Source of the DNA: Gyromitra esculenta
Lineage: Eukaryota; Ascomycota; Pezizomycetes; Pezizales; Discinaceae
NCBI GenBank assembly: GCA_038503075.1
Contig: JBCAML010000002.1
Location: forward strand, 558,001 to 622,000
Reading direction: 5' to 3'
Length of the DNA stretch: 64,000 nt
Shown here: piece by piece, positions 19,534 through 60,977 of the stretch
How the letters are laid out: each line of letters begins with the position of its first letter
Numbering within the stretch: position 1 is the stretch's first letter
Position numbers and translations under genes: made by a program
The notes under the pieces: model-generated
Told to the model about the DNA's origin: nothing
What the model saw: only the letters and a program-made list of their open reading frames with translations
Databases searched by the model: none

Positions 19534-22500
19534 CTATAGAGAGATATTGAATTTCATCGCAATCCCCATGGCAGCTAGTTCGACATCTAGATACCTATTT
19601 TTCCGTTAACTCCATCCATTGGCCAGCAAGAGGGAAAGGGAGCGGAACGGAAAGGAGAGTAGGCAGAGAAATAGGACTAACTTTAGAACATAGGGGACGG
19701 CGATCATTGTTGTATCTAATCCGCCCACAAATTTTCCACCATTGCCATCTTCCCATATCATCTCTTCGTCTTCAAATCCACTCGCAAGTTTTGCGCATCT
19801 TCGACAACGCACTTGGCTCTCGAATCCAATTTTCTTAATTGAAGGCGTGGCACTCAAGAAGCTTCCGCATTCCTTGCAGATCCAAGTTTGAGTGTAATCA
19901 CTACAATTCAAAAGACGATCTTGTAATAGGAATGCAGAACCGTGAGCGAGTAGTGAATCGCGCTCCATCTCTCCGACCCGAATACCACCTCCTTTTTTAC
20001 GACCCTGCAATATAGACGGAAGGGTTAGGGAATTTCAAAGGATAGTGGAATGAGACAGTGCAAACCTTTATAGGCTGATGCGTTAAATCAGATATTCTAC
20101 CAGTCGTCCTGACCTGATATTTATCGTTCACCATATGTCTCAGTCGCTGATAATAAACGACTCCGATGTAAATATCGGCATGCAGCTCCTCTCCAGTGAT
20201 TCCGGAATACATCGGTTCATTTCCATGGTAGTTATAACCAGCCATCTTCAATTGACGCCCGAAGTAATCGGCAGCGGTGTGGTGCTCATCAAAGCGGAAA
20301 GGGGTACTGTCCTGCGCAATACCGTGTAATGCACCAGCCTTTCCAGCTAAAGACTCAACAAACATACCAATTGTCATCCGGGATGGGAAAGCGTGAGGAT
20401 TGATGATGATGTCCGGTTGCATACCAGACTCTGTAAATGGCATGTCGATCGCAGGCCACTTCTGGGAACAAACACCTTTCTGACCATGGCGAGAGGAAAA
20501 TTTATCTCCAATACTAGGACTACGAGGAATTCGATATTTGATAGAAATCTGCTGCATCGGTTTGTTATCGCCACCTTCAATTCCTATCATCGCAGAGTTA
20601 GCGGATTTGCTACCAGATTTGGAACAGTGTATTACCAAGTAGTCGAACTTCTTCGATATAAGCCTCTTCGCTACCTTTATAGAGGAAGACTTTATTCTCT
20701 GGGTGCATTGAACCGGAATCTAAATCTTTTGGCACTTGGTGATACACGGCAACTGCATCTCCATCTCTCACAAGCTGTCCTATCTTCGGTAATCCGTCCA
20801 TATCCACCGTTTTAAGCCATTCCTCCCGAATACCCAACTTTTGGTACGCCCGCTTCTTAAAATTCTTTGCCTCGTCTGTGGATTCATCCATTGCATGAAT
20901 ATCATCAATCTGAGCTTCAATATCTTCTGTATTAACGAATCCGAAGAGATTCTTCGAATCCGATCCTCCTCGACGTTTTTCGTCGACCCATCCAAGCTTT
21001 TCCGTTTTATAAATCGTGCCATGGCCAAACCCTCGCTCATGGGCCGACTTGTTAAGAATCATGGCATCGTCCATGTCATAGCTCGTGTAAGAGATAACCG
21101 CAACAATAGCATTCATCCCGTTAGGGAAGTTGTCAAGACCGTATTCATTATACAGAGGTGATCTGACCACAGGGGTTTGCCCAGTCTGCAGTCGGTACAT
21201 CTTGTTGTCGCTTCTGTATCGCAGCGCCGTTCCGGGGGTCCCCATTGCTTGTTTGCCCATCTGGCATTGATACATATTTCTCGGAGACTGGTTGAAGTCT
21301 GAAAACGGAGTCATGTTGGCAATAATAGAAAGGATATTTGTAGGATCAAACTCCACATGTGTTGATTCTCCTGGAACGATTTCCGGTGGCGTAACAGCGA
21401 CCGACATGTATGGTTGCTCAAAAGGCCCAATATGATCTTCTTTATCCAGGGGAAGATATTTTACTGGCCGTATCATTCTTGCTTGTTGCGAGAAGAGGTA
21501 AATACCGGGGAACTGACCACCCCGTGATTCAGGAACATATCCGATCTCCAGATCCAACGGAATGTCGTGAGTTCCCTCCACTTTCCAGTACCGTAGAACA
21601 TCAGATACCACACGAGCTAGTTTGGATGAGCACCAGCCAATAATACAGCCATCAAGCTGGATACAAATGGTAGCCGATGAAGGTAAGGACGTAGTAGCAG
21701 GAGAGGTGACCCCAAGCGAAGCGAGGGTTTTCCGTATTGAAGATGTGTCTGAGATTGTTGTCGTAATCTGGCATTTATGCGCAAGATGATTTAACAAACC
21801 ACAAGGACTTCCATCAGGAGTATGCACAGGGCACAGGAAACCTGCACAAGCATAAGTTAATACCTCAGTCTTTTCTCTCTCCCCTTTTCTTTCTTCTTTA
21901 AAAAATAACTAAAAAGGTTAAAAAATTACCCCAACTTTCAGGCAATAGCTTGCGAACAGTGGTCGTTTTCAATTGTGCAAAAAAGCTTCCTCTATGCACC
22001 ATTCGAAAATGTGAGATGAATCGATAGAAATTTATCTTTTCGGCCACTACCGTAAAACCGGAAACTTGCTGTAGATCTAACCCACTAGGCGAAGATAGAT
22101 TTCCAGTCGACATGAAGTATTCTAAGCTACTGCCAAGGTTTTCGTTTACTTTTCCGAAGATTCTCATCCTGTGTTCTTTATTGCCGAAATCAATAAGCAT
22201 GCCACGAGTAACCTCCCGCCGAACCTCCCTCGTGATTTGTTCCAGATACTCTTCCACGCGCTCCTTTATAATCATGCCGTAAAGGAAACCACCAAGAAGA
22301 ACTTCCTGATGTTGGATTGCGTCTGGATTGTCCTGGGTGCAACTGCCTTCCACAAGCGCATACAGTTTCCGAATCATAAACAGCATCAATCGAAATTTAT
22401 CCTTTGGATCTTCCAAGTGAACCAACACAATCTTCCTTAGAAACTCCTTTCCAACATCCACGTCGCTCATATCTGGCGCTACGCCCATAACAATCCGAAA

Positions 22501-23630
22501 TTTTTCCCCCAGGTGCTGTAGTGTTTCTTTCTTTGTATAAAGTTGGTATCCTTTATATGTCCTCAGTAATAGCTCTACACGATCCGTAAGGAACGTGTTC
22601 TCCCTATCTTTCGTGACCAGAAGGCCGTCAAAGATCTCACGATCATTTGTTTCAACGAGAGCCTTCAGCACCATCATAACTGGGACTAGGTATTCGTTTT
22701 TCCGCCAGGAAAACCTGAAAGTAACATTACCATCATTAAGATAGTGTAGAACGTTCGTTTGCGAGGTTTGGTCAGGTCTAACGCAGCGAATCTGAATACC
22801 GAACTGGGTGTAAGATTTTCCTCTCCCAGCGAAAGAAGGTCGAACAATAGCCATAGGATGGTTGCGACGGGCGACGATGAGTAGACGAATTAATTTTTCG
22901 ATTCCATTGACAATAAAGTAACCACCAAGCTCTTCGGACTCTTCTTTGCGTTCAACAAGATCGAAGGGAGCTAGATTTTCTAGGTGGCACCGATTTGACT
23001 AGCCAAAACTGTCAGTACCGTCCAATTCCAACCCGATCCGTGTACCTACTCGAATCATGATGGGGATGTTCCCAATTTCGCGATCTTGGGAAATCCAAGG
23101 ACCATCGTTGATCTTCAGTCCAAGTTTCACAGACAATTTGCCACGATATGTAATATGCCTCTCTCTACACTATGCGATAATTTAACATATGGGCAGTAAC
23201 GATACACCCCAACCAACACTCACCTCAGCAGGAAATATTTCACGCCGTAAGCTAGTCTTGTCTCGATCGCTTATTCGTGGCTTTCCGATATAAATTTTGT
23301 CGACCCGTACTAGCATTGCCCACAAAAGGTTCACCAATCAGTTTAAGTCTCTTCAATTGAGCTTGGTGTGATAAGTAAGAAATCCCTACATGAAAGCTTA
23401 TTCCCTAGACTGCCCTTTTCAATTTTTCCGTCGAAAACGCTTTTGACCCCGATATCTTGCCGCGCGAGATCGAGCAAACCGCCCTCAGCAGTAACAGCAT
23501 TAAAGGAGTCAATGTGTGGTTGAACGGCCGCAAGCAAAGCTGGGAAAGCAGACTTGTCCTTAGGAGGATTCCGGAAGAGATTTTCTCTCTTTAGCGTGTT
23601 GAACGACGTTGAAGGTTTTGAAGATACCAT
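19534..23630 (-). CDS. RPA135: RNA polymerase I second-largest subunit (RPA2/RPA135)
   Basis: This is the beta-like catalytic subunit of RNA polymerase I, which transcribes rDNA in the nucleolus. The eight-exon model is 23630-23390, 23309-23224, 23169-23050, 22998-21930, 21841-20636, 20583-20066, 20004-19682 and 19594-19534, all GT-AG and in phase, giving 1207 residues; yeast Rpa135 has 1203. The N-terminus ([20 protein letters not shown]) is Pol I specific, distinguishing it from RPB2 and RPC2. Later landmarks are [47 protein letters not shown], the catalytic [20 protein letters not shown], the hybrid-binding [13 protein letters not shown], and a C-terminal zinc ribbon (WICKECG...RCRRCAK). 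Intron 5 (20584-20635, 52 nt) is easily missed because both flanking frames run into it. Confidence 0.95.
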
Positions 23631-37656: not shown

Positions 37657-39391
37657 TCAGTTGTGGTTACCAGCGCCGACCTCGACATTTAAGCTTTCCA
37701 TGGTCCCGCTTCTCCCCTGCCTGACAAGATGCTCGTGCCCTACGGCTGCGGCACCGGCCCCCATCTCCCAATCTCTTCTTATTTCCTCGAGAACTTTCTC
37801 GCACCAAATTCTGATATCTCTGTCAAACGCTCGCCATCCATCATCCGTTCCATTGACTACTGCTAAGACATCAAATTTTAACCTTACTTCCCATCGTATC
37901 TCTGCAGCTTTTTTCCAATATCTAAGGTTTTCAGCTGATCTATAGGGTTTCGTGAATTCTGTGTGGTAACTGAGTATTTGGCCAAAGGGACGTTTCGAGC
38001 GACGCACTACAGCATTGTGTATCAGGATTAACCGCAAACCTGACCGTAGGGCTGAAAGGAAGGGTGTAGGAAGGGTGGCAGTTTCCGATATTTCAGTTAC
38101 TGGGGGTAAGGGTTCTGGAGAGGAATCGAAGTAGGACAAGAAAAGCCTGTTTCGATCTGTTGAGATTAACGTTAATATTCGTGCTTCATTGCAAAATCGG
38201 CATCGGCATCGGCGAGACATACCCATGTCCCTTCCCACCCAATCTCCTTCAAGCCATTCTCGCCCTTTCTTCCGCATTTCTAAAATGGCCATTTCCTCGG
38301 CAGCTAATGATTCCTCCACGCTATCAATCCATCTGACCACTGCATCTCTTTCCTCAATTTTTACCCCCCCCTCAAATTTACGTTGGGCCATGCTTTTCAA
38401 AACATCTAGGATTGCCAAAAATTTCTCTCTTAGTGTTTTATCATCTTTCGTGGAAAGCAGGAGAGAAGAGTCGGTTGTGTAGTAATATGATTTGGCCGCT
38501 CGTATTGCAGAAGTTGCAAGCTCAACTAACTCTGTTCCTTGTAACTCGTTGAATCCTGGCGGCAACTCAACTGGCCCGACACCTTCCCCATCAATGTTCA
38601 CCTCATTGTTCCCCGATATCACAGGGCTTTGCATCCATGCGCCCCTAGTGACAGCTAGCGCTCCCCTAAGCCGCTCCCGCAAAACAGCCGGATCTGGAGT
38701 AGGCGGTAGAGACTTAGTTTGTGGATTGTATGTTGAAGTGGTAGGAGGAAGCATTGCCGATTCGTCGAAATCGAAGTCGCCAAGCATCTCTGACTCCGAT
38801 GGCGATTCCGAGAAAAACTCGAGTTCACTGGGTACCAGTAAGTCTGGAGAGGAGCGGAGCGAAGAATATGTCGAGTCTTGGAGAATACTTGGTGAAGTTG
38901 TGTCGAGCACGAGGTAACTTGATCTCTGTGAATTCTGTTTTGTTTGCAAACCGCTATGCTCCAGCGAGACGCATTTAGTATAGGAAAAGGATATAGCGGG
39001 AGTAAAAGCCCGGGGATGAAAATACTCACGCCCCTTTCCCATCCAACAGGCCTGTTTTTGCAAAGAAGTATTGTAAATGGGCTATGCTTCCTAAAGCCAT
39101 TACACTTTCTCGTGATCTTGCAGATGTTGAGAATTCTGTTCCTTGTGGTCGCATAAAGCCCCTCCTGCGGGTGATGAGTTCATTGCGCCCTACTGATGAT
39201 CTTGCAGAGGAGGAGGAGGATACTGTCGACGAAGAAGAAGCAATTCTTCTGAGAGGGGGAGGGGGGGAAAATCCTAGAGACGGGGGTGTGGTGGGGGGGG
39301 TATTGGAAGGAGACGCCATTTTGGGGGAGGAGTTGGGCTTTGTTGGAGTTGAGCGAGGTGACGGAACAGGGGTATGATCAGCGGAGGACAT
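37657..39391 (-). CDS. Fungal protein of unknown function
   Basis: Two exons, 39391-39030 and 38953-37657, with a 76-nt intron (GTGAGT...CATAG, branch TACTAAATG), give 552 residues. The N-terminus is Ser/Pro/Thr-rich and probably disordered. A segment around residues 97-121 (SIAHLQYFFAKTGLLDGKGA, split by the intron) looks strongly constrained and recalls conserved fungal proteins I cannot name. The centre is acidic and Ser-rich, followed by predicted helices (LRERLRGALAVTRGAW, ATSAIRAAKSYYY). A Cys-rich basic patch, RRCRCRFCNEA, precedes a region rich in Trp and Arg. There is no signal peptide or membrane segment. I do not assign a function. Confidence 0.75.
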
Positions 39392-41874: not shown

Positions 41875-42344
41875 GCTCACCCACCCCCACTGACCCTTGC
41901 ACTGAAGGAGCTGGGGTCACTACTCAAAGATTTCCAACAAAGGAAACCTTTGCCCAGACCATGAGGGAAGACCCCGTTGAGCTATACAACCAGCTCCGGG
42001 AACTCAACCAGGCACTAAAAGATCAAATAGACACTCTCCAGGAGATCAAGAAGGATGCTGAAGTCAAACTCAGCACAGCGCAGATACAGGTGGAAAACGC
42101 TCTCCGCCACGCTGCCACAGAGGACCAACGAGTCAATGAAGCCTCAACCCTCATCGCCAGACTCCGCCAGGAGCAGAACGAAGCCCGCAATACCAGCTGA
42201 ACACCCCCAGCTCCACACAATCTTGCTCCCTCGCTGCCACCAGCCCCATTGACCACCACTCATTGCTCTGAACGCATGCCGGATCCAGAGAAATTCGATG
42301 GCTCCAGAGTTAAACTCCCCCGCTTCATCCTCCAACACCGTTCC
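41871..42344 (+). pseudogene. Gypsy-like gag, N-terminal part (gag1, left piece)
   Basis: It starts MSSPTPTDPCTEGAG, with a predicted coiled coil (LRELNQALKDQIDTLQEIKK). A TGA at 42198-42200 interrupts the frame, which then continues through PAPLTTTHCSERMPDPEKFD and LPRFILQHRS, the usual start of a retrotransposon Gag domain. The frame is cut at 42344 by family-A copy A0. The continuation is on the minus strand at 49211, separated by a 5.7-kb inversion and nested insertions. Confidence 0.85.
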
Positions 42345-42375
42345 TTTCACGGATACGAATGAGTAAATGGGTCAA
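42345..42375 (+). mobile_element. Family A copy A0, first 31 bp
   Basis: It starts TTTCACGGATACG after target sequence GTTCC (42340-42344) and is cut by copy A1 at GTCAA (42371-42375). The remaining 379 bp are at 49217-49595, inverted. Joined, they make a 410-bp element closely similar to copy A6. Confidence 0.8.
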
Positions 42376-42653
42376 TTTCACGGATGAAGAAGAATAATGG
42401 GTTAGGTTTCGGTTAGAAGTAATGTTTGTGGGTTATGGGTTTTCTTTTGATAATAATGTCTTTGTTCTTCGGCTATGTTCGGTTACGAGTTTTGGACAAG
42501 GAAAGCGGGGTATATAAGGGGGATGGTTTCATTGTTTTGTAGTTCTTTTCTTCTCTTTCCTTAAGCAACGTTCTCGTTACACTTCTCTTGTATCAGTTTT
42601 AATCCCACTTCGATTCTCCCTCAGAATCCTCGCTGTCGCCGTGAACCATCGCC
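42376..42653 (+). mobile_element. Family A copy A1, left piece (nested in A0)
   Basis: It starts TTTCACGGATGAAG after GTCAA. Copy A2 interrupts it at TCGCC, it resumes at 43078-43191, is interrupted again by LTR B1, and its last 25 bp lie inverted at 49601-49625 (followed by the AGGGC/GCCCT duplication). Confidence 0.8.
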
Positions 42654-43072
42654 TCTCACGGTTCAGTATCTCGTTAAGCCCTTCAGTATCCCTGAAGGTG
42701 AGCAGTGCTACTTAAGCGAGATACTAACTCGTTTGAAGAGTGCAGTGTTTCTACAAGTTCTACTGGAGGTATACTTCAAGGCGAAGTATCGACGATGGTT
42801 CACAGCGACAGCGAAGGTTCTGAGGTAGAACCGAGATTGTATTGCAATAGACACAGGAGAAGGTAAACGAGAACGTTGCTTAAGGAAAGAAAGAAGAAGA
42901 GAAAACCACAGCGACCGAAATCCTTCACTTAAATACCCCGCTTTCCCGTAACACAAACAACACCCTAACAATAACCGAGAAACAACCGAACAACAAAGCC
43001 ATTATATCCCGACGACCCTTCGTTACTACCAACGACTTCTTCTTAACCCATTACCCAGTTTCATCCGTGAAA
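42654..43072 (-). mobile_element. Family A copy A2 (nested in A1)
   Basis: A complete 419-bp reverse-orientation copy: TCTCACGG at the left, CCGTGAAA at the right, flanked by the 5-bp duplication TCGCC (42649-42653 and 43073-43077). Confidence 0.85.
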
Positions 43073-43077
43073 TCGCC

Positions 43078-43191
43078 GATACTTCGCCTTGAAGTATACT
43101 CCCTGTAGGACCTGTAGAAACCTTGCACTCGTCGAAACGAGTTGATACCTCGCTTAAGTAGCACTGCTCACCTTCGGGGATACCGAAGGGC
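43078..43191 (+). mobile_element. Family A copy A1, middle piece
   Basis: This resumes A1 after copy A2 and stops at AGGGC (43187-43191), where LTR B1 begins. Confidence 0.8.
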
Positions 43192-43925
43192 TGTAACGGA
43201 TCTACAATACCGTTACCTGCAGTGAAGCATAATAGCACCGGACAAGCAGAGAGGTAGTAAGGATCAGCATGAGTGGTGTAGCTACCACATGTTAGAGGAT
43301 ACCTGCTACCCTGCTGTTCCGATGGAGTGGAACCAGCGAGAATAACATTAGCTGATGAGCCAATGATATATCTCCAGTGATACCAAACACAGGAAGCTCC
43401 TGTGATGGCGTTTCCAATCCATCTATGCATATACTAGCGGCCTAGAGCCACTGGTGCGGCAATAGGGAATCTATTAAGTGCAGGACACCTCACATGCAAC
43501 AGTAGACTGATCAGCGCCGATTCCTACATTCAGCATAGGCATGGCATGCAGCTGGCGGATCAAGAAGGTCTAACTGGACAGAACAACCAAGGAGTGCCGG
43601 AGAGCGCCGAAGTGATCATTAGCTGAATCCTGAGGTGCCCCGCTCGCAAAATCTTGGCATGTTCTCAGGGTCTCGACGGGCCCCCAGCAGAGTAGAACAG
43701 AAAGAGGAAGGCGAGTCAGCAGCACTATAAAGATAGTGCATGACCCCATTACCTGTTGCTCTTCTTCCCAGTCTCATCAGACAGAATACTACCGAGTAGA
43801 GCCCTTAAGATTATTGAGTATCTTGCACGAAATACTCTTAAACATCTCAACCTGATTTAGTATTTGCAACGGCCGTAATCCTATACCTATTCCCACTACA
43901 GAGCAGTAGAACTACCCCCGTTACA
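43192..43925 (-). mobile_element. Family B solo LTR, copy B1 (inversion breakpoint)
   Basis: A 734-bp solo LTR in reverse orientation with TGTAACGG...CCGTTACA ends. Left flank AGGGC and right flank TATCC do not match each other, but they match, in reverse complement, the flanks of copy B2 (GCCCT and GGATA). Confidence 0.9.
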
Positions 43926-44600
43926 TATCCAACATATGCCCTGTTCGTAGCGTGATTCCAAGCATATGGCACACCAGGAGCTGTGAGTGGTCCAGCTGGG
44001 GTTTGGGCCGTCGGGTCTATGGTAATGAATCATACTGCCTTTGGAGGGAAAGCCGGGGGTGCCATCACACCAGCTGCAACGACTGGAGCTGCCATGGCTA
44101 CCGAAGAGGGACCAGCAACATCTAAAATAGAGACAATATTAGTATATGAACAGATGAATGCCTTCCTAGATTATTACTTACTGATATCTTCTCCCAAATC
44201 GTTGCCAAGAACCTTCAATCCTTCCCTGACCTTCTTCATACAATCCTGGACCATAGACTTCAAGGCAGTGTGGAAATTCTTATGTGGATTATTCTGCGTA
44301 TTATGCGTATCTTGGTATTTTGGCAGCTGAAAGACGAGATTCGGATGCTGCATGGTGTAATCCAACAGCTCTTGGTATCTGGAGTTTTAAACATTAAAAA
44401 AATTGAGTGGGTGTGTTGATCCTACCGTTTAATATAACGCAAAACCTGATTAGAAACATTTTGCCCGATTTGGAAGAACATCGATTTTCTTGATATTTAG
44501 ATTTTATATATGATATCGCTATATGTATCAAAACACATGGTATTGTTATAATTACTTTTATAAGGTATTGTGAATAGTACATCATCCAAATAGTTTGCTT
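43926..44600 (-). pseudogene. SNF2-like gene, N-terminal piece (in inverted segment)
   Basis: Minus-strand exons read RYQELLDYTMQHPNLVFQLP...KVLGNDLGED, an intron (44181-44122, GTAAGT...TTTTAG, branch ACTAAT), then VAGPSSVAMAAPVVAAGVMA, a TGA where the frame continues FITIDPTAQTPAGPL, and NRAYVG at the LTR. Once the inversion is undone the frame runs directly into YVDNPTLVWLYAIAARALPS at 50370. The start is not defined; another exon probably lies between 44400 and 44790. Confidence 0.6.
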
Positions 44601-44800
44601 TACAAATATTCAAATTCACTTTTGAACCTTTTCCATTCTTGTTTTTTCTTTGAGCCAATTCTAACATAAAATTTTAGAGTTTTTGTCTTCTTACTTCAAT
44701 ACTTCAACGCTAATTATTGCTCAATTCACTGTTCTCAACAACATTCAAAAACCCTAACCCTTCATGATGTCATTCCCCACACCCTCAAAAATATCATTCG

Positions 44801-46812
44801 TTTTTTTTTTTATTTAAATCATTTGATTGTTGTTACTAGGTACAAAACCACTTATGCAACACGAAGGTTATGAAGTCAAAAAACCTATCCCCATCAAATA
44901 AACACCCTTATCTGCCTGGGTAAGAAAAGAGAACACAAAGAAAAAGCGAACCAAATACTTCCAAGAGAACAAGACAATGTTCCTGCGATAAAACAACTTA
45001 GGGGTGCAGGGAAAGTTGACAGCGTATGCCTATGAGAGTAAAGAGACTTGCAAGCAACAGCTAAAAAACAATGAGAAACCATGGAAGAAGGTCCACAGTA
45101 AAGCCACAATGGAAGCGAAGAGTAGCCAGGAGAAGTTTCCAATCAAAGTTGGTAGGGGTTGGGGAAGTATTGGTAAAGTGACCTAAAGGTCCATCTGGTC
45201 ATCTGCTGGAGGGGGCGGTGAAGCCTTTGAAGGGCGTGATGGGCAGCTGTTCAGGTGTGACTCATGGGGTCCGTCATAGTTGACACACTTAACAAGAGTG
45301 TGAGAGCAAGGATGGCCCTTGATTGAGCAAGTAAGGGTGGGGCAGGTATGAGTTGCAGTGGGATGAAGTCCAACACACCAGCGGCAGCATGGTTGGTTGG
45401 GGAATTTGTTTGTGTGGTGTCCAAATTTGTGACATTGGGAACATTGGGTGGAGGGTCCAAAACGGAGTTTGCGTTCAGCTTGGACAGTGGTGGAGAAGGC
45501 AGAAAGGCGAGTTCGATTAGCGATCTCATTAGCTTTGGGACCAGAGAGTGTAATAACAATTGAGGAAAATGTTTTCCCTCTTCGTTTTTCTGGTAAAGTA
45601 AGTCATCTTGGAGGTGTGTCCATAGTGAGGCCAGGGTTGAAGTTGCAGAGCTCTTGCTGAATGGCGGAGGGCTCCATGGAAGTAGGAATACCATGTACAA
45701 CAAGTTGGTGCACTGGTTCGTCAAGGTGTAGGGAGCGAGCTCCCGGGATGATGTGGAGAAATTGGCCAACTTTCCGGTAATGGGTGTTGGCAAACATATT
45801 GTTCATGACTGTCAACGACACATTCTGGGAATGTGTGTCTATTGCCACAGATTGGATGGTGATGGAACCGATAGCATAGTTTAGCTTCTCTCTGAGTTCC
45901 GTGGGTGTCCCTTGAGTGAGGGGAGTGCCATTGCGTTTGACAATCAAACAGCATGCGCGCATGGTGGGGGTGATGGTGAGAGGGGAGACATGAGTCTTAG
46001 GGGCAGGTGCGGAGGCAGCCTGTTTGGTCTTTGCTGGTTGGGCTTTTCTCTTGGGTTTGCTGGCCGCCACCTGAGCCCATTGCAGGGGCTTTGGGGCAGG
46101 AGGAGGTGCTTGGGTAGCAATAGCAGGAGCAGGAGGAAGAGGAGCACTAGGTGCAGGTGGTTCTGAAGGCGCTGCCCTCCCTACTGTGAGCAGCAGGTGG
46201 TCACGCTCTAGTTTGCTCAGAGTCGGAGACTTTGGAAACATGTCTTGGAGAGGTGCAGGAGCTGGTTTGCTTGCTGCTTCCTTGAGGGTGGTGATTTTGC
46301 CTTGTAGATGCTGTATCATGTCAAGGAGTTTTTGGAAGTGGAGGAGGTTGAGCTTGCCGGCTCTGGCTAGAGCATTGCAAACATCAAACCCAAAAGCTGG
46401 CTCACTGCCTAGGTGAGTGGTAATGGCCTCCCCTGGTTTATTCCAGAGGCCCGCCGAGTGGGTTGGCTTTTCAAAAACAGGAGGGGATGGGGGAGAGGTG
46501 TCAGCTCTCTGTCTTTTCAATAGTGAGGGGGTGCTTGGTTCCTCCACAGATGAAGAGGAGGAGGCAACGAATGGGTTTGGAGTTCCCTCAACTTGATGAT
46601 GAGGGAATATGGGTGTAAACATGTTGCCTTTACCTTTGGGAGGCATTGTGACTGTGGGTTGTTGTGTAAATGATGATCCAAATCGTTTGTGAAAGAGGGG
46701 TAATGGAATGAAGCCAAAGTGCTAAAGACTTTTGGCTGTGTGTAACACCGTTGCAATGCAAAAGGTGTTGGTGAACTTTCAATCGAAGAGGTTGTAGCGG
46801 GGACGGAGGATG
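44801..46812 (-). mobile_element. LINE copy 2, internally deleted (ORF1 plus both ends)
   Basis: The 3' end is the A-run (T-run at 44801-44811 here), preceded in element orientation by a 100-bp tail shared with LINE copies 1 and 3 (TTTAAATCATTTGATT, GTACAAAACCACTTATGCAA). The 5' end (GGGACGGAGGATG at 46800-46812) and the 5' leader are also shared with copy 1. Only ORF1 lies between; the endonuclease/RT ORF2 is missing. I found no clear target duplication. Confidence 0.75.
45183..46646 (-). pseudogene. LINE ORF1 protein (nucleic-acid-binding), frameshifted
   Basis: It starts MPPKGKGNMFTPIFPHH and continues as a Pro/Ala-rich chain with a short helical segment (LNLLHFQKLLDMIQHLQGKI). A frame change occurs between about 45600 and 45790. 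The C-terminus carries Cys/His clusters typical of ORF1 zinc knuckles (for example CSQCHKFGHHTN, and a degenerate one CVNYDGPHESHLNSC). It ends at the TAG at 45183-45185. The sequence differs from copy 1's ORF1, so these are subfamilies. Confidence 0.7.
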
Positions 46813-47127
46813 ACTCATAAACCTAGTAGGAGCTGACCCGGAGGATCCCACTAGAGACTCAACCACCTGCACTCCATTCTCTCACCCCCCCTCTATTGGA
46901 ATACTGAGCTCTAGATCTTTATTGTATATTAAATATATCTTTTTATTGGGAAAACGTTTGGGATACCATGTTTCTGACGAGTTTGTATGCCGGATACCAC
47001 CGCTACTTTGCTCTAACCCCGCCCACCTACTTGTACCAGCCATCACAGCACTATTATGTAGAATTCAGACCAAAAAACCCTCTTCATCACATACTACTGT
47101 AATATCTCACACATAAGGAACACGCCC
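46813..47127. other. Unassigned 315-bp stretch between LINE copy 2 and LTR B3
   Basis: I recognise no coding or repeat signature. It ends at CGCCC before LTR B3. Confidence 0.4.
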
Positions 47128-47861
47128 TGTAACGGGGGTAGTCCTACTGCTCTGTAGTGGGAATAGGTATAGGAATACGGCCGTTGCAAATACTAAATCA
47201 GGTTGAGATGTTAAGAGTATTTTTGTGCAAAGTACTCAATAATCTTAAGGGCTCTACTCGGTAGTATTCTGTCTGATGAGACTGGGAAGAAGAGCAACAG
47301 GTGGCGGGGTCATGCACTATCTTTATAGTGCTGCTGACTCGCCGTCCTCTTTCTGTTCTACTCTGCTGGGGACCCGTCAAGACCCTGAGAACATGCCAAG
47401 AATTTGCGAGCGGGGCACCTCAGGATTCAGCTAATGATCACTTCGGCGCTCTCCGACACTCCTCGGTTGTTCTGTCCAGTTAGACCTTCTTGATCCGCCA
47501 GCTGCATGCCATGCCTATGCTGGATGTAGGAATTGGCGCTGATCAGTCTACTGTTGCATGTGAGGTGTCCTGCACTTAATAGATTCCCTATTGCCGCACC
47601 AGTGGCTCTGGGCCGCTAGTATATGCATAGATGGATTGGAAACGCCACCACAGGAGCTTCCTGTGTTTGGTATCACCGGAGATATATCATTGGCTCGTCA
47701 GCAAATGTTATTCTCGCTGGTTCCACTCCATCAGAACAGCAGGGTAGCAGGTATCCTCTAACATGTGGTAGCTACACCACTCATGCTGATCCTTACTACC
47801 TCTCTGCTTGTCCGGTGCTATTATGCTTCACTGCAGGTAACGGTATTGTAGATCCGTTACA
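47128..47861 (+). mobile_element. Family B solo LTR, copy B3
   Basis: 734 bp, TGTAACGG...CCGTTACA. Left flank CGCCC, right flank CACTG: unmatched, so this LTR is also a recombination junction. Its right flank is the same family-A position and the same CACTG found beside copy B6. Confidence 0.88.
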
Positions 47862-47955
47862 CACTGCACTCCTCAAACGTGTTAGTACCTTGCTTAAGTA
47901 GCACTGCTCACCTTCAGGGATACTGAAGGGCTTAACGCAGAACTGAACTGTGAGA
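47862..47955 (+). mobile_element. Family A copy A4, 3' end only
   Basis: The last 94 bp of a family-A element (CACTGCACTCCTCAAACGTG...CTGTGAGA). The other 310 bp should have been left of LTR B3 but are not there. Confidence 0.8.
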
Positions 47956-48529
47956 TTGGAGGAGTCTGCTGATTCTAACGCGAAAAACTGAGGTGGGGGA
48001 GGTGGCGGCAGCAGAGAGGAAGCGGGAGGAGTACGAGTGGCTGGTGGTGCAGTGAGGGCTCCTCTCATTGTGGGTTTCTTAGGTGCGGAGGGGCAGTTAG
48101 CGTATGAGTGGTCGGGGGCGGCACAAAACATGCATTTTCCGGTGGCTCGTCGCCGTTGTTTCTCTTCTTCATAGAGCTTGCGGCGTCTGTTTACCATGGT
48201 TCAACACTGATCTTGTGGGAGGCGAGAGAGATTGCTAGTTCATCCGAAAGAGAGATCCATTGGGGCTAAGCCTCCTGGCACAAAGGAAGAGGCGGGGACG
48301 AAGGGAGTCATTGCCTGGGTGCTGAATGGTCCCATTGTTTCACGCATATTACCCCATTTCTCTGCTCTACGAGCGCAGATCTGGTTATTGAGGTGGGTGA
48401 GGGTTACAATCATTTCATTGATAGTAACAGGGACGGCGGTGGCGAAGACCATAGCTTCCTTAAGCTCTTCTGACATGCCGTGTTCTAGAGCGTCCATCTT
48501 CAAGTTTTCATCGGAGTGAAGATGCCCCA
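47956..48529 (-). pseudogene. Gypsy-like gag1, C-terminal part with zinc knuckle
   Basis: Read on the minus strand it continues Gag after copy A3: GHLHSDENLKMDALEHGMSE, then NRRRKLYEEEKQRRRATGK and the CCHC knuckle CMFCAAPDHSYANC (C-x2-C-x4-H-x4-C), followed by a Pro-rich tail. It is cut at 47955 by copy A4. Protease and polymerase domains are not in the window. Confidence 0.85.
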
Positions 48530-48935
48530 TTTCACGGATAGGATCGGGTAATGGGTTAGGATGGAGTTATTGGTTGCCACGGGTTATTCTTTTATAATGT
48601 CTTTGTTGTTCGGCTATGTTTCGGTTATGCGTCAGAGTATGAGAAAAGAGGGGTATTTAAGGGATGGGTTTTGGTCGCTTGTTGTTCTTTTTCTCTCTTT
48701 CTTTAAGCAACGTTCTTACATTACTTCTATTGTATTGTTTTAATCATACCTCGATTCTACCTCAGAATCCTCGCGGTTGCTGTCGCTGTGAAACCTTTAC
48801 ACCTAACTCGCCTGGAGTTAAAACCCACGTAGGACTTGTAGAAACATCGCATACCTTGTTGCTTGACCTTTCGTTCAAGTCGCACTGCTCACCTTCAGGG
48901 ATACTAAAGGGCTTAGCGAAGGTCAAACCGTGAGA
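48530..48935 (+). mobile_element. Family A copy A3, complete, in gag1
   Basis: 406 bp, TTTCACGG...CCGTGAGA, with target duplication CCCCA (48525-48529 and 48936-48940). Removing the element and one CCCCA restores the gag frame across it (FQRIMG joined to HLHSDEN). Confidence 0.92.
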
Positions 48936-49211
48936 CCCCATGATCCTTTGGAAATCGGCCAAGTAGGCGGAGAAATCTCGCTTTCCTTGGCGGATTTGGT
49001 GCAATTCTCGTCGCGCAGTGCCAGTAGGGTCCGGGTCTCCAAATGCAGTTTCCAGAGCAGCAATAAGTTGCTCTGCACTGGTCCAGCTGGTTAGGCCGGA
49101 GGGGAGAACGGTATGGCAAACTTGTTCCAGTGCAGCCCCTTCAAGATGGTTGATCGTGTATAGGATCATGGTAGTCTCTTCAGCAAATCGGTTGCAGTTG
49201 ACAGTAAGTTT
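48936..49211 (-). pseudogene. Gypsy-like gag1, middle part
   Basis: The minus strand reads KLTVNCNRFAEETTMILYTI, NHLEGAALEQV, LIAALETAFGDPDPTGTARR and LHQIRQGKRDFSAYLADFQR, the core Retrotrans_gag domain. It follows directly on HRS of the left piece at 42344 once the inversion and copy A0 are removed (the GTTCC duplication is present at both ends). Confidence 0.88.
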
Positions 49212-49216
49212 GGAAC

Positions 49217-49595
49217 TCTCACGGTTTGGTTCTTGTCTAAGCCCTTCTGTATCCCAGAAGGTGAGCAGAGCTGCTTAGATGAGAATTGTTGCGATAAGAG
49301 TGACGAAGTTTCTACAGGTCCTACGGAGGTCTAACTCAAGGCGAGTTAAGTGTAAATGGTTTTCACAGCGACAGCGACCGCGAGGATTCTGAGGCAGAAT
49401 CGAAGTAGTATTAAAACAGTACAATAGAAGTAAAGTAAGAACGTTGCTTAAGGAAAAAAGAAGAAGATACAAGCGAACAAAATCTATCACTTAAATACCC
49501 CGCTTTCCAACCATTATGACTCATAACTCAAAGCAACCGAAACACAAAGACATTATAACTTTAACCAAGATCCTGTCACAACCCATACAATATGC
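49217..49595 (-). mobile_element. Family A copy A0, remaining 379 bp (inverted)
   Basis: TCTCACGG at 49217 is the element's end, next to GGAAC (reverse complement of GTTCC). The piece stops at TTGAC (49596-49600), the complement of the GTCAA at which copy A1 inserted. Confidence 0.85.
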
Positions 49596-49600
49596 TTGAC

Positions 49601-49630
49601 TCTCACGGTTGAGTCTCTCAGTTAAGCCCT
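49601..49630 (-). mobile_element. Family A copy A1, terminal piece
   Basis: TCTCACGGTTGAGTC...GCCCT: the last bases of copy A1 in reverse orientation, ending with the GCCCT target of LTR B2. Confidence 0.8.
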
Positions 49631-50364
49631 TGTAACGGGGGTAGTTCTACTGCTCTGTAGTGGGAATAGGTATAGGATTACGGCCGTTGCAAATACTAAA
49701 TCAGGTTGAGATGTTTAAAAGTATTTCGTGCAAGATACTCAATAATCTTAAGGGCTCTACTTGGTAGTATTCTGTCTGATGAGACTGGGAAGAAGAGCAA
49801 CAGGTAATGGGGTCATGCACTATCTTTATAGTGCTGCTGACTCGCCTTCCTCTTTCTGTTCTACTCTGCTGGGGGCCCGTCGAGACCCTGAGAACATGCC
49901 AAGATTTTGCGAGCGGGGCACCTCAGGATTCAGCTAATGATCACTTCGGCGCTCTCCGGCACTCCTTGGTTGTTCTGTCCAGTTAGACCTTCTTGATCCG
50001 CCAGCTGCATGCCATGCCTATGCTGAATGTAGGAATCGGCGCTGATCAGTCTACTGTTGCATGTGAGGTGTCCTGCACTTAATAGATTCCCTATTGCCGC
50101 ACCAGTGGCTCTAGGCCGCTAGTATATGCACAGATGGATTGGAAACGCCATCACAGGAGCTTCCTGTGTTTGGTATCACTGGAGATATATCATTGGCTCG
50201 TCAGCTAATGTTATTCTCGCTGGTTCCACTCCATCGGAAAAGCAGGGTAGCAGGTATCCTCTAACATGTGGTAGCTACACCACTCATGCTGATCCTTACT
50301 ACCTCTCTGCTTGTCCGGTGCTATTATGCTTCACTGCAGGTAACGGTATTGTAGATCCGTTACA
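49631..50364 (+). mobile_element. Family B solo LTR, copy B2 (inversion breakpoint)
   Basis: 734 bp, forward orientation, flanked by GCCCT and GGATA. See copy B1: the four flanks pair crosswise. Confidence 0.9.
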
Positions 50365-52085
50365 GGATATGTCGATAATCCCACCCTTGTCTGGCTGTAT
50401 GCTATTGCAGCACGTGCCCTGCCGTCAGGAAGATCCACAAGGACATTATACAGCGGTTTAGCTAGTCCTTCACCTGGAGCTGCTGACAGCAGACCTGCCG
50501 GGATTGATATCACAGAGCTATTTGACAACCAGCAGGTCCAGGGCTGGTTGGCTATCAGCAATGCTGTTCCCATTACCTGTATTGTTAAGCTATACCGCAA
50601 GGAGATGGATAGCAGACCAAATATGCTGCCTCCCAGTGGTTGTCCTCACCTGCTAGAGGTAGAATATCATCCACCATTCGATATCTTCAATCCTCCGTCA
50701 GATTTGGAAGATGATAGCCATGGAAGGGACCATGCAACCTGGAGGAAGCATATGCCCAAGACCCAGGATGGTATCAAGAGGAGGATGGATAAGATTGGTG
50801 CCAGGAGGGACCGCCAGCAAGCTATGATTAGGCGCTATGAGGTGATTGCCCGCGGCAAATATGGGCCGGAAAACGTCCTTTGTGAGGACGAAGAAGGGTG
50901 GTATCCGGGAATTACCCCTACCAAGGAAACGCTAGCAAAACGTTGGCACACCCAAGATATCCGGGAAGGAAATTCTGGGGTTCCAATGAATTGATTCTAG
51001 GGCGTTTGGTCATTGATGAGGCCCACAGCTTGTGAACATCAGGCACCTCTATGTCTAGAATAGTCAATCCCAACACCGGAGTATCTACTCATGCTGATCC
51101 CAATAGCGCGATGGCGGCTTGGGCAAAACAGCTAGACACGTTAAAGTCAGATGCCAAATGGATGCTGACAGCTACCCCTCTGGTGATTAATTTAGCAGAC
51201 TTGCACTGGGTATGTCGGTTTTTGCAGAGGCCTGAATGGCTTTCGCAAAACCTGCCCCCAGACACATTCGCTAACAAAGATGACATTGAACTGGCACTGT
51301 GGGTGCCAAATCCCAATAGACCCAGTAATGATGGCAGCACACCCAACTCGGTTTTCACCCCTAAGGTGGATCCCTTCCAAGACCACAAGACATATGGTTC
51401 TTATGTTCATTGTACAACAAAGGCTTGGAATAAGTATATCATGCACCATCTCAACATCCTAGCAAAGTTCCAGTATACCCAGCACAAGAGGAATCTTACC
51501 AAGGGAAAGCAGGATATGATGCAATTTTCTCTGCGAATATCAGGGGAGTTCGCAAGAGAAATCTTGCGTACCCTAATACTTCGCCGCTCGATGGTCAGCA
51601 GGATCCCGTTTAGAAAGGGCAGGCCAATCATCCACATACCCGTGATGAAGACTGTTACCACACACCTACAGTTTGCTGATGACAGATCGAAAGCTCTCTA
51701 CACCACTTTGGTCAACGATTATGCCAAGATACATGCCTCCATTGGTAGGCAAGATGTATCAGGGGTGCAGGCACTTATCGCAGGCCACAAATTCGGTCCC
51801 CGCTGGCATTATATTCACTTAGTCTAGCTGTCCCCTTTGCTTGCCTACACTTAATTTATTGAGGAGTTCTCCACCGAGAATTTATTCAGCAAGGACCAAG
51901 CAGATCAGGGCAATCCACAGTGACTTAAGGTGAAATCGTTGCTAACTAGGTTTCACAGTGAAATGCCAGACAAGGGAAGGGAGTTCTACCTCGAATCGAT
52001 GGGTTGCATGAACGATAGGGATATGACCAGTGCAATGGAATTCGGCAGTCTGAAGTTGGGTCAACTGAAAGATTGGCTGCATGAA

Positions 52086-52484
52086 TTTCATGGATAGAAT
52101 CGGGTAATGGATTAGGATGGAGTTATTGGTTGTCACGGGTTATTCTTGTTGTATAATGTCTTTGTGTTTTGGTTGTGTCGGGTATTGGCTGTGGCTTGGA
52201 AAAATGGGGTATTTAAGCGATGGATTTCGGTTGTTCTTCTTCTCTTTTCTTCCTTAAACAACATTCTCGTTTACCTTCTACTGTGTTTATTCAATACGAT
52301 CTCAGTTCTATCTCAGAACCCTCGCTGTTGCTGTTTACCCTGCTGCACTTATCTTGCCTTGAGATAGACCCCCCGTAGAACTTCTAGAAACACAGCACTC
52401 TTTGAACGTGTTGATACCTTGCTCAAGTAGCACTGCTCACCTTCAAGGATACTGAAGGGCTTAACGAGGGACCCAACCGTGAGA
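52086..52484 (+). mobile_element. Family A copy A5, complete, in the SNF2-like gene
   Basis: 399 bp, TTTCATGG...CCGTGAGA, target duplication ATGAA (52081-52085 and 52485-52489). Confidence 0.9.
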
Positions 52485-53836: not shown

Positions 53837-54572
53837 TGTAAAGGATCTACAATACCGTTACCTGCAGTGAAGCATAATAGTACCGGGCAAGCAGAGAGGT
53901 AGAAAGGATCAACATGAGTGGTGTAGCTACCACATGTCAGAGGATTCCTGCTACCCTGCTGTTCCGATGGATTGGAACCAACAAGAATAACATTAGCTGA
54001 CAAGCAAATGATATATCTCCGGTGATACCAAGCACAGGAAGCTCCTGTGGTGGCGTTCCCAATCCATCTGTGCATGAACCAGCGGCCCAGAGCCATTGGT
54101 GCAGCAATAGGGAACCTATTAAGTGCAGGACACCTCACATGCAACAATAGACTGATCAGCGCCAATTCCTGCATCCAGCATAGGCATGGCATGCAACTGG
54201 TGGAGCTAGAAAGTCTAACTGGACAGAACAACCAAGGAATGCCGGAGAGCATGGAAGTAATCATTAGCTGAATCCTGAGGTGCCCTGCCTGCAAAATCTT
54301 GGCATGTTCTCAGGGTCTTGACGGGCCCCCAGCAGAGTAGAACAGAAAGAGGACGGCGAGTCAGCAGCACTATAAAGATAGTGCATAACCCCGCCACCTG
54401 TTGCTCTTCTTCCCAGTCTCATCAGACAGAATACTACCGAGTAGAGCCCTTAAGATTATTGAGTACTTTGCACAAAAATACTCTTAACATCTCAACCTGA
54501 TTTCTAGTATTTGCAATGGCCGTATTCCTATACTTATTCCCACTACAGAGCAGTAGGACTACCCCCATTACA
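53837..54572 (-). mobile_element. Family B solo LTR, copy B4
   Basis: 736 bp in reverse orientation, ends TGTAAAGG...CCATTACA, the most diverged copy. The flanks GTAAG and GTATA do not match. Confidence 0.85.
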
Positions 54573-54819
54573 GTATAATCTCAAGGCTTCAATCACCTAG
54601 AGATTCCTTTTGACAAAAACACCACCTCCTGTCACATGCCTAGGTCCTGGGTTTGGGAACTTCTATCCCTTACCTGCTGTAGTATCGCCAGAAAATCACA
54701 CCGGTCATCCCTCTCAGAAGAGGTCATCCCAGACTGGCTAGATGAAACCTACCTTCTACAGAACTGTCGACTGGCACCATCGGTTCCAGAGCGTGCCTAT
54801 ACCCCTTACATACCCTACA

Positions 54820-56503
54820 ATGCCTCCAAAAGCCAGCACATCATCTACACCCGCTATTACAGCACCCCCTGAGGTCCTCGCTATTACCTGGGAACCCAAG
54901 GAGCTTGCGGTCAGGCAAGATGATCTCTTGCAGCTAATCAAAAACCCACGCTCTACCATTCAGAAGTACATCCCCGAAATTAAGCCACCATGGACAGAGA
55001 GCACCACAGTTACTGTTCTAGAATTCTTCAATACAGTCCAAGATGCGCTGAAGGAATATGTTGACATAAACGTTCAAAAATCATCCTCTATAATCAGCAT
55101 TCTTGTGGAACGGCAGAAAGCAGAACAGTTTGTCTTGGGAGAGGCAATGAAATACCTGAATGAAGAAATACTAGGCTGCCAGAGGATCATCCAACAACTT
55201 TTAACAGAGAAAACTCAAGTTCTTGATGATCCAATGAAGCTAGATATCCCAGAAGCAGTCTCTTTCACCCCTAACTTCTTGCTCCAGATTCAGGAAGCAA
55301 TTGATAACGGCCAGCTACACATTCAACCACCCCCGCTGCCACCAAAGAAGAAGAAAGGAAAGCACCAAGAGAGAGCTAACACTTTTTCACGGATATGAAT
55401 GGGTAAATGGGTCAAGGATATTGTATGTGTTGTGATAGGATCTCGGTTAGGATTATAATGTTTTGGTGTTTCGGTTGTCATCGGTTATGAGTCATAGCGG
55501 TTGGAAAGCGGGGTATTTAAAGGATTGATTTTGTTCACTTGTATCTTTTTCTCCTTCTCTCCTTAAGCAACATTCTTACTTTACTTCTAGTGTACTGCTT
55601 TAATACTACGTCAATTCTACCTCAGAATCCCTGCCGTCGCTGTCGCTGTGAAAACATTACACTTAACTCGCCTGGAGTTAAACCCACATAGGACCTGTAG
55701 AAACATTGTATACCTTGTTGCTTGACCTTTCGTTTAAGTAGCTCTGCTCACCTTCAGGGATACTGAAGGGCTTAACAAAGGTCAAACCATGAGACACTTT
55801 CTCCCTGGAAGAATTTCCTATAACTATTCAAGCTAAACCTCCCTCCCAAGAACCAAAGACGCCAGCAAATCTGAGAGATACTGCCGTCGCTCCTCCTAGG
55901 AATTCAACCCCACTCCCCCCATCGCTGCCACCTCCCAGATTAGGCGATGATCTAACAGCATTTGGACGAGGACCACCTCCGCCAGGACCCCCGCCCCCAT
56001 GGGCTAATCTCACTCCAGGAAACAGTGGCGAGGCTAGTAGAAACGGAAGGGTTAGGAAGGAGGAAGAAACCGGAGGAGATGGAGGAGGAGATGGAGGAGG
56101 AGATGGAGGAATAGGTGGCGGTAGTGCAGGAGGAGGATTGACTGGAGAAGGAGGAGGAGGAGACCTGGGAGATGATAGTAGCAGTGGAAGCTCACTAGGA
56201 GGAGAAGGAGATAAAAGGAAATGGAGGAAGTATTTTCGCAAGAAGGGATGGGAGCAGGAGGACAGAATGTTTAGACATATCGAAGCAATGATGTCCGGCG
56301 GAACCACATCACCCTCCACCAACAGAGGCAGAGAACCAAAAGCACCTCAGCCCAGCAAGTTAAAGGGTGAAGCCAGCGATGTGGACCGATTCCTCTGCCA
56401 ATGCAAAAATGTCTTCATCATTGAGGCATCCAGTTTCCAGCAAGAATCAATTAAGATCCGCTACACTGGCAACCTCCTAGAGGGCCAAGCAGCAGTCAAC
56501 TGG
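54820..56503 (+). pseudogene. Second Gypsy-like gag (gag2), interrupted by copy A6 and a LINE
   Basis: It starts MPPKASTSSTPAITAPPEVL. A helical N-terminal region (EFFNTVQDALKEYVDINVQK) and a basic stretch (PPPLPPKKKKGKHQERA) precede copy A6. Removing A6 restores ERANTF to SLEEFPITIQ. A Pro/Gly-rich linker, then KRKWRKYFRKKGWEQEDRMF and the Gag domain start (PKAPQPSKLKGEASDVDRFL, IRYTGNLLEGQAAVNW) follow. The frame is cut at 56503 by LINE copy 1. Related to, but clearly diverged from, gag1. Confidence 0.85.
55385..55794 (+). mobile_element. Family A copy A6, complete, in gag2
   Basis: 410 bp, TTTCACGG...CCATGAGA, target duplication CACTT (55380-55384 and 55795-55799). Confidence 0.92.
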
Positions 56504-56910: not shown

Positions 56911-57644
56911 TGTAACGGGGGTAGTCCTACTGCTCTGTAGTGGGAATAGGTGTAGGAATACGGCTATTGCAAATACTAAATCAGGTTGAGATGTTAAGAG
57001 TATTTTTGTGCAAGGTACTCAATAATCTTAAGGGCTCTACTCGGTAGTATTCTGTCTGATGAGACTGGGAAGAAGAGCAACAGGTGGCGGGGTTATGCAC
57101 TATCTTTATAGTGCTGCTAACTCGCCGTCCTCTTTCTGTTCTACTCTGCTGGGGACCCGTCAAGACCCTGAGAACATGCCAAGATATTGCGAGCGGGGCA
57201 CCTCAGGATTCAGCTAATGATCACTTCGGCACTCTCCGGCACTCCTTGGTTGTTCTGTCCAGTTAGACCTTCTTGATCCGCCAGCTGCATGCCATGCCTA
57301 TGCTGAATGTAGGAATCAGCGCTGATCAGTCTACTGTTGCATGTGAGGTGTCCTGCACTTAATAGATTCCCTATTGCCGCACCAGTGGCTCTGGGCCGCT
57401 AGTATATGCATAGATGGATTGGAAACGCCACCACAGGAGCTTCCTGTGTTTGGTATCACCGGAGATATATCATTGACTCGTCAGCTAATATTATTCTCGC
57501 CGGTTCCACTCCATTGGAATAGCAGGGTAGCATGTATCCTCTGACATGTGGTAGCTACACCACTCATGTTGATCCTTACTACTTCTCTGCTTGCCCGGTA
57601 ATATTATGCTTCATGGCAGGTAACGGTATTGTAGATCCATTACA
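56911..57644 (+). mobile_element. Family B solo LTR, copy B5, in LINE ORF2
   Basis: 734 bp with intact 5-bp duplication TGCAG (56906-56910 and 57645-57649). Removing it extends ORF2 as PNQLQPFVNYIRHTITGYPP. Confidence 0.93.
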
Positions 57645-59829: not shown

Positions 59830-60977
59830 TCTCACGGTTCAGTCCCTCGTTAAGCCCTTCAGTATCCCTGAAGGTGAGCAGTGCTACTTAAGCAAGGTAC
59901 TAACACGTTTGAGGAGTGCAGTGTGTAACGGATCTACAATACCGTTACCTGCAGTGAAGCATAATAGCACCGGACAAGCAGAGAGGTAGTAAGGATCAGC
60001 ATGAGTGGTGTAGCTACCACATGTTAGAGGATACCTGCTACCCTGCTGTTCTGATGGAGTGGAACCAGCGAGAATAACATTTGCTGGCGAGCCAATGATA
60101 TATCTCCGGTGATACCAAACACAGGAAGCTCCTGTGGTGGCGTTTCCAATCCATCTATGCATATACTAGCGGCCCAGAGCCACTGGTGCGGCAATAGGGA
60201 ATCTATTAAGTGCAGGACACCTCACATGCAACAGTAGACTGATCAGCGCCGATTCCTACATCCAGCATAGGCATGGCATGCAGCTGGCGGATCAAGAAGG
60301 TCTAACTGGACAGAACAACCGAGGAGTGTCGGAGAGCGCCGAAGTGATCATTAGCTGAATCCTGAGGTGCCCCGCTCGCAAAATCTTGGCATGTTCTCAG
60401 GGTCTCGACGGGCCCCCAGCAGAGTAGAACAGAAAGAGGACGGCGAGTCAGCAGCACTATAAAGATAGTGCATGACCCCGCCACCTGTTGCTCTTCTTCC
60501 CAGTCTCATCAGACAGAATACTACTGAGTAGAGCCCTTAAGATTATTGAGTACCTTGCACGAAGATACTCTTAACATCTCAACCTGATTTAGTATTTGCA
60601 ACGGCCGTATTCCTATACCTATTCCCACTACAGAGCAGTAGGACTACCCCCGTTACACAGTGTTTCTACAAGTTCTACAGTGGATATACTTCAAGGCGAA
60701 GTATCAGCGATGTTTCACAGCGACAGCGAAGGTTCTGAGGTAGAACCTTGATAGTATTAAAATAATACAGGTAGAAGTGAAACGAGAATGTTGCTTAAGG
60801 AAAGAGAAAGAAGAAGATACGAAACGACCAAATCCCAACACTTAAATACCCCGCTTTCTGCATACCATGACTCATGCCCAATCAACAACTGAACAACAAA
60901 GTCATTATTTCATCCTAACCAAAACCGTAACAACCTACACATTATCCTTGACCCTTTACCCGTTCTTATTTATGAAA
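59830..60977 (-). mobile_element. Family A copy A8, in LINE ORF2, carrying LTR B6
   Basis: Reverse copy: TCTCACGG at 59830, decayed TTATGAAA at 60970-60977, target duplication CTGGC (59825-59829 and 60978-60982). LTR B6 splits it into 94 bp and 315 bp. Confidence 0.92.
59924..60657 (-). mobile_element. Family B solo LTR, copy B6, nested in copy A8
   Basis: 734 bp, reverse orientation, intact duplication CAGTG (59919-59923 and 60658-60662). Confidence 0.94.

Follow-up and report, generated by a model that had tools for sequence, protein, structure and literature searches.

What rearranged the flanks of two inverted long terminal repeats (LTRs) that lie a few kilobases apart in the genome of Gyromitra esculenta? 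The two repeats, B1 and B2, belong to a retroelement family that we call B. They lie in a window of 64,000 nucleotides (assembly GCA_038503075.1, contig JBCAML010000002.1, C2:558001-622000), and the genome comprises 47.1 Mb in 23 contigs. An initial annotation, made from the sequence alone, had noted that neither LTR stands between matching target duplications and had proposed an inversion. We found that the flip between B1 and B2 is a real feature of the assembly and that homologous recombination is its simplest account. Very probably, a homologous crossover between the two inverted solo LTRs flipped positions 43926-49630 and exchanged the halves of their target duplications. The features that define the flip are listed here by position in the window.

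43192-43925, minus strand (strand label as in the initial annotation): B1, solo LTR of a B element, 734 bp, TGTAACGG..CCGTTACA
49631-50364, plus strand: B2, solo LTR of a B element, inverted relative to B1, with 5 differences in 734
43926-49630: inverted segment, 5705 bp between B1 and B2, marked by swapped duplications and by pre-flip junctions in paralogues
43187-43191, plus strand: AGGGC, half of the B1 target duplication
49626-49630, minus strand: AGGGC on that strand, the other half of the B1 duplication, now adjoining B2
50365-50369, plus strand: GGATA, half of the B2 target duplication
43926-43930, minus strand: GGATA on that strand, the other half of the B2 duplication, now adjoining B1

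The B LTR is 734 bp long, with termini TGTAACGG and CCGTTACA. B1 and B2 are 99.3% identical (5 differing sites in 734), and as inverted arms they are 99% complementary over 735 nt and 5705 nt apart. On the plus strand, B1 is flanked by AGGGC and TATCC and B2 by GCCCT and GGATA, and the flanks are unmatched within each LTR. Read in LTR orientation, the flanks are GGATA and GCCCT for B1 and GCCCT and GGATA for B2, which is a reciprocal swap. The coordinates and the mismatched flanks had been given correctly in the initial annotation, base for base, and the in silico inversion of 43926-49630 that it proposed restored AGGGC/AGGGC and GGATA/GGATA perfectly. It also rejoined the halves of two copies of a second family, A, restoring both of their duplications (GTTCC for the copy first called A0 and GTCAA for A1). 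One flip thus yields four perfect 5-bp duplications, AGGGC, GGATA, GTTCC, and GTCAA, and the chance of four such matches from one flip is about 4^-20 if base frequencies are equal. No base was lost or gained at either junction. The inversion had been said to rest on four independent lines of proof; all four duplications are indeed restored, but they sit at two junctions of one event. Among the 12 opposite-orientation pairs formed by the seven B copies on C2, a swap restores both duplications in B1/B2 only.

The A-family copies cut by the flip are nested in one another.

42345-42375, plus strand: left piece of A-family copy Y (A0), with GTTCC before it at 42340-42344
49217-49600, minus strand: right piece of copy Y, followed by GTTCC on the minus strand at 49212-49216
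42376-43191, plus strand: left piece of A-family copy X (A1), inside Y after GTCAA and split by copy Z
49601-49630, minus strand: right end of copy X, followed by GTCAA on the minus strand at 49596-49600
42654-43072, minus strand: A-family copy Z, nested in X, with the intact duplication TCGCC

Copy Z and B1 lie within X, and X lies within Y. Five complete A copies in the window were checked, a tally that leaves out the A copy holding another B LTR, B4; four of the five (Z, A2, A5, and A6) have perfect duplications, and A7 does not. The family is about 400 bp long and makes 5-bp duplications, and its termini resemble TTTCACGG..CCGTGAGA rather than TG..CA. These copies may be LTRs of an unusual type or may belong to the terminal-inverted-repeat elements. 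Its copies were seen at 42345-43191, 48530-48935, 52086-52484, and 55385-55794.

If the segment had been flipped, the sequences now parted by B1 and B2 would once have been neighbors. The pieces in question are these.

41900-42344, plus strand: upstream gag-like piece, outside the flip, with one stop in frame
48936-49216, minus strand: downstream gag piece, inside the flip, with a Retrotrans_gag match
43926-44388, minus strand: upstream part of the B2-site region (coding-like, unnamed), within the flipped segment, with one in-frame stop within 44119-43931
50365-50994, plus strand: downstream piece of the same B2-site region, outside the flip, with an open frame

The two gag pieces occur together at at least 16 loci outside the window, a lower bound, as the searches scored the best 40 of 333 and the best 40 of 297 candidates. 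Of these 16 loci, which both searches found, 15 have the pieces abutting with exactly 5 common bases; at the sixteenth (C16:872-873 kb), about 450 bp separates them. At the B2 target, the pieces that run onward from 43926 and from 50365 lie back to back on opposite strands at C20:859844-859848 and C17:966469-966473, with exactly five bases common to both at each locus. The target is thus contiguous at two of the three loci listed, and at the C17 locus the 43926 piece is split again further along. In all three paralogues examined (L105, L106, and L109), an open frame crosses the site, and the window pieces, each translated separately, end and begin in register with the through-frame of the paralogue at both sites. 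The flip had also been said to fuse two separate coding frames. The phase is kept relative to the paralogues, but each upstream piece carries one stop in the stretch translated, so neither frame reads as intact. The frame at 50365-50994 gave no Pfam match and no homologue at E <= 1e-5. Because both pre-flip junctions are contiguous in paralogues, the pre-flip order is the normal order of those sequences.

We propose the following course of events. Two B copies, opposite in orientation, would have inserted at separate sites, B1 into copy X (in Y, in gag-like sequence) at the target AGGGC and B2 into the unnamed coding-like region at the target GGATA, and both would have ended as solo LTRs. Later, one crossover within the paired inverted LTRs would have flipped 5705 bp, with nothing lost or gained and with the duplication halves exchanged. 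Such a crossover would have taken place within one molecule or between sister chromatids, and gene conversion may also have made B1 and B2 alike. The exchange of halves, the orientation of the LTRs, and the pre-flip junctions in paralogues indicate that both insertions preceded the flip. Homologous recombination between inverted LTRs, the mechanism suggested at the outset, fits the duplications, the orientation, the clean junctions, and the paralogue order.

Does the same signature occur elsewhere in the genome? We gathered 73 full-length B LTRs, from exact or near-exact LTR starts (first 100 places) and the best 40 scored matches. This survey misses older copies, and all of its counts are lower bounds. 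A perfect 5-bp duplication flanks 40 of the 73. The remaining 33 comprise 12 that border internal element sequence and 21 solo copies, 4 of which match at 4 of 5 bases. Among these 33 there are two reciprocal swaps, B1/B2 and C15:886996 (minus strand) with C15:935790 (plus strand). Both join inverted copies on the same contig, as an inversion requires. The 33 LTRs yielded no reciprocal swap between contigs, and interchromosomal exchange was rejected.

The C15 swap (C15:886996-936523; L061, L062, and L064) would correspond to an inverted segment of about 48.06 kb (887730-935789). The copy at C15:883212 is an inverted duplicate of the C15:886996 copy, flanks included. At the CCCCC junction, the 936524 piece matches five loci outside C15, and four of the five have the 883211 piece alongside. 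The two overlap by 5 bases at C12:637132-637136 and C1:3459678-3459682, by 5 at C10 (by extrapolation), and by 14 at C2. This support covers one of the two junctions, CCCCC, which is of low complexity; the other is ATGTT. For the solo copies that lack a perfect duplication (20 once C15:883212 was dropped as a duplicate), we asked how often reciprocal pairs arise by chance in 20,000 draws. With random 5-mers from the window as flanks, 0.05% of the draws gave at least one reciprocal pair; with flanks taken from the LTR flank pool, which includes the swapped ones, 5.2% did. Two or more pairs arose in 0 of 20,000 draws and in 0.15%, respectively.

The survey also showed flank matches in one direction only, one within C17 (CCAGT) and the other linking C20 with C7 (GGGGG, of low complexity). 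On C17, CCAGT stands to the right of one LTR and to the left of the other (C17:937150 and C17:946509; L072 and L073). These two are mutually nearest, at 3.8%, with all others more than 6.5% away, and the match perhaps reflects two successive exchanges with a third copy outside the list. Two further pairs share a site in a repeated host sequence. C9:999304 and C13:1067709 (CTGAG) have LTRs that are 7.9% apart; C14:848344 and C14:852789 (GGACA) have near-identical 240-bp flanks and LTRs that are 6.1% apart. Either repeated insertion at one site or conversion would explain these pairs.

The likeness of B1 and B2 raises the question of whether the flip happened only once. The two differ by 0.68%. 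We compared this with 39 distinct copies with intact duplications (C14:852789 was dropped because its flanks are the same as its partner's), where the minimum of 741 pairs was 1.6%, so that B1 and B2 are closer than any pair of independent insertions. Three alleles are common to B1 and B2 and occur in none of the other aligned copies of the 73. For 10 of the 39 copies the nearest neighbor is on the same contig, against 1.7 expected, and 0 of 5,000 shuffles reached 10. The nearest-neighbor and identity data favor conversion among neighboring LTRs. They also speak for a flip that is real but polymorphic or recurrent, with exchange back and forth and conversion keeping B1 and B2 alike. We consider this possible, though we doubt it: a single arrangement is visible, the identity is equally explained by a shared recent source, and the C15 pair is 3.0% apart.

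The last two of these points weigh against the crossover account as well, as do several others. The C15 swap partners have not been homogenized, and the identity of B1 and B2 could come from a shared recent source as well as from conversion. At a third locus that matches the 50365 piece (C20:901474-902024, 70%), the 43926 piece is absent from the listed matches. Each upstream coding-like piece, in the stretch translated, holds one in-frame stop. The paralogues give the normal order for each target and not for the whole 5.7 kb of this locus, and the uninverted order is known here from paralogues within the same assembly.

A second alternative is that full-length B elements recombined and collapsed to solo LTRs afterwards. 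A full-length copy does exist, at C3:3006630-3014887, flanked on each side by CCACC. However, no feature of the window calls for such partners, and they would alter the timing and not the flip; we regard this course as unlikely. The C3 copy was read as two pieces, and it has distinct frames matching reverse transcriptase, RNase H, integrase core, and chromodomain. On the side of gag and protease, the two frames further upstream have no match above the curated cut-off; GAT and DUF4939 are all that came up below it. The ends of B LTRs are short inverted repeats, and their target duplications are 5 bp long. The four domains matched in the C3 copy together characterize the Ty3/Gypsy chromovirus class. 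Judged by domain content, the B element is a putative Ty3/Gypsy chromovirus; the comparison is by domain content alone, with all four domains present in one full-length B copy, and B1 and B2 differ from such elements in being solo LTRs. The coding frames of the C3 copy run opposite to the LTR sense used in the initial annotation and here. That sense is probably reversed, which leaves the main conclusion unaffected.

An assembly error is much less likely still. In that case, a 5.7-kb unit would have been joined backwards between near-identical 734-bp LTRs, and a wrong join at LTRs that are about 99% complementary would leave the same signature. However, an assembly of 47.1 Mb that falls into 23 contigs was presumably built from long reads, and such reads would be able to span a 7.2-kb unit with 0.7-kb repeats, and there is a second, larger reciprocal swap on C15, although that might be wrong likewise. 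Coincidental matches with no inversion can be dismissed, because although 5-bp duplications are short and the flank-pool draws do give reciprocal pairs, here four duplications are restored and the paralogues are contiguous at both junctions.

Homologous crossover between B1 and B2 is thus the account that we prefer. A third B LTR lies inside the flipped segment, and its flanks do not match either. The window holds six B-type LTRs, in the order B1, B3, B2, B5, B6, and B4, and those not yet described are as follows.

47128-47861, plus strand: B3, third B LTR, inside the flip, with unmatched flanks CGCCC/CACTG
53837-54572: B5 LTR, adjoining internal element sequence
56911-57644: B6 LTR, with a perfect 5-bp duplication
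59924-60657: B4 LTR, with a perfect 5-bp duplication

The right flank of B3 is the same A-family insertion point as that of B4, and the B3 and B4 LTRs are mutually nearest, at 1.2%. We rejected the idea that B3 was simply copied from the B4 locus: the 94-nt flank is 96% identical, against 95% in other A copies (best 40 of 1315). B3 marks a separate rearrangement. This was perhaps conversion from B4 or, as an equally simple course, a deletion that joined two LTRs in direct orientation whose duplications were CGCCC and CACTG. None of the 73 LTRs carries the missing halves of the B3 duplications. To the left of B3, the flank has no empty-site paralogue among the listed matches outside the window, all of which stop at least 26 bases before the LTR. 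Next to B5, 54573-55398 is probably internal B element sequence: its frame at 54742-55398 weakly matches the GAT domain, over the very residues that are weakly matched in the first frame of the C3 copy. After this B5-side sequence, an A copy with the duplication CACTT starts at 55385.

The left part of the window appears to be genic sequence. The frame at 37657-39081 (474 aa) has as its best named match a Morchella importuna protein, at 75% identity over 93%, and Tuber proteins rank next, at 64-65%. These matches fit a member of the Pezizales close to morels, and a basidiomycete origin was rejected on them. At 20610-22998 there are two frames that by eye resemble the second-largest RNA polymerase subunit. 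From about 40 kb rightward the window is dense in transposable elements, including a long interspersed nuclear element (LINE) with endonuclease and reverse transcriptase, a hAT remnant, and gag pieces.

B LTRs are clustered on their contigs. Of 93 exact LTR starts, 77 lie inside the best 150 kb per contig, where 39 were expected and the maximum in 1,000 uniform draws was 50. The exceptions are C4, C18, and C19, with one site each, and C13, whose three sites are scattered. At least 23 copies of a 140-bp repeat (44387-44526 in the window) lie elsewhere in the genome. Each of the 23 has a B LTR start no more than 100 kb away, whereas just 18% of the genome is so placed. This repeat is a candidate marker of the B LTR clusters. 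That the clusters are putative centromeres is a likely reading, plausible but unproven, and the B1/B2 region may accordingly be centromeric.

On this basis we raise, as a speculative idea only, that the centromere-like clusters of this genome owe their shape to ongoing exchange among inverted chromovirus LTRs on one chromosome, with flips and pair conversion as its products and swapped duplications as its record, and that the 5.7-kb segment may still flip. If this were true, inversion history would be legible from one assembly. Small inversions between inverted LTRs are to be expected, and in our judgment their proof usually takes a second genome. Here, swapped duplications and paralogous empty sites argue for an inversion from a single assembly, and the same scan over 73 LTRs led to a second, larger candidate. 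This offers a cheap reading of ectopic recombination in repeat clusters, putative centromeres included, where synteny comparison is hard.

The mechanism itself is already known; here it left an unusually clean scar that is legible without a second strain. Among the titles and abstract openings listed in our searches of the open-licence literature, none describes swapped duplications that reveal an inversion between solo LTRs. For Morchella importuna, the available text reports 8 inversions between two monospore genomes, giving no breakpoints for them (PMC6164635). In Cryptococcus, ectopic recombination is attributed to similar centromeric repeats, according to the portion of that report at hand (PMC5568439). 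The sharing of retroelements is the same, there in regional centromeres; the exchanges in Cryptococcus are between chromosomes and involve arms, whereas both of our reciprocal swaps are within a contig and our clusters are only putative centromeres. In plants, as far as the excerpted account goes, solo LTRs that lack matching duplications come from unequal recombination; an LTR left by ectopic exchange may or may not keep its duplication, and gene conversion is reported among LTRs (PMC7251063); the word "inversion" appears 0 times in its main text. The unmatched flanks from ectopic LTR recombination are the same in both cases. There the outcome is element removal and conversion, whereas here it is a reciprocal exchange in which both partners are kept.

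The closest counterpart is inversion 2z3 of Drosophila buzzatii, generated via the transposon Galileo, a case that in the sections available rested on three features: the opposite orientation of the copies, the exchange of their duplications, and their chimeric make-up (PMC2775673). Both cases have copies in opposite orientation, exchanged target duplications, and no deletion or duplication. In both, the targets are single contiguous copies before the inversion, seen here in paralogues and there in sequenced uninverted chromosomes. Galileo is a P-superfamily DNA transposon and 2z3 a natural chromosomal inversion, whereas our case involves solo LTRs and 5.7 kb. Chimeric copies are reported for 2z3, whereas B1 and B2 differ at only 5 sites.

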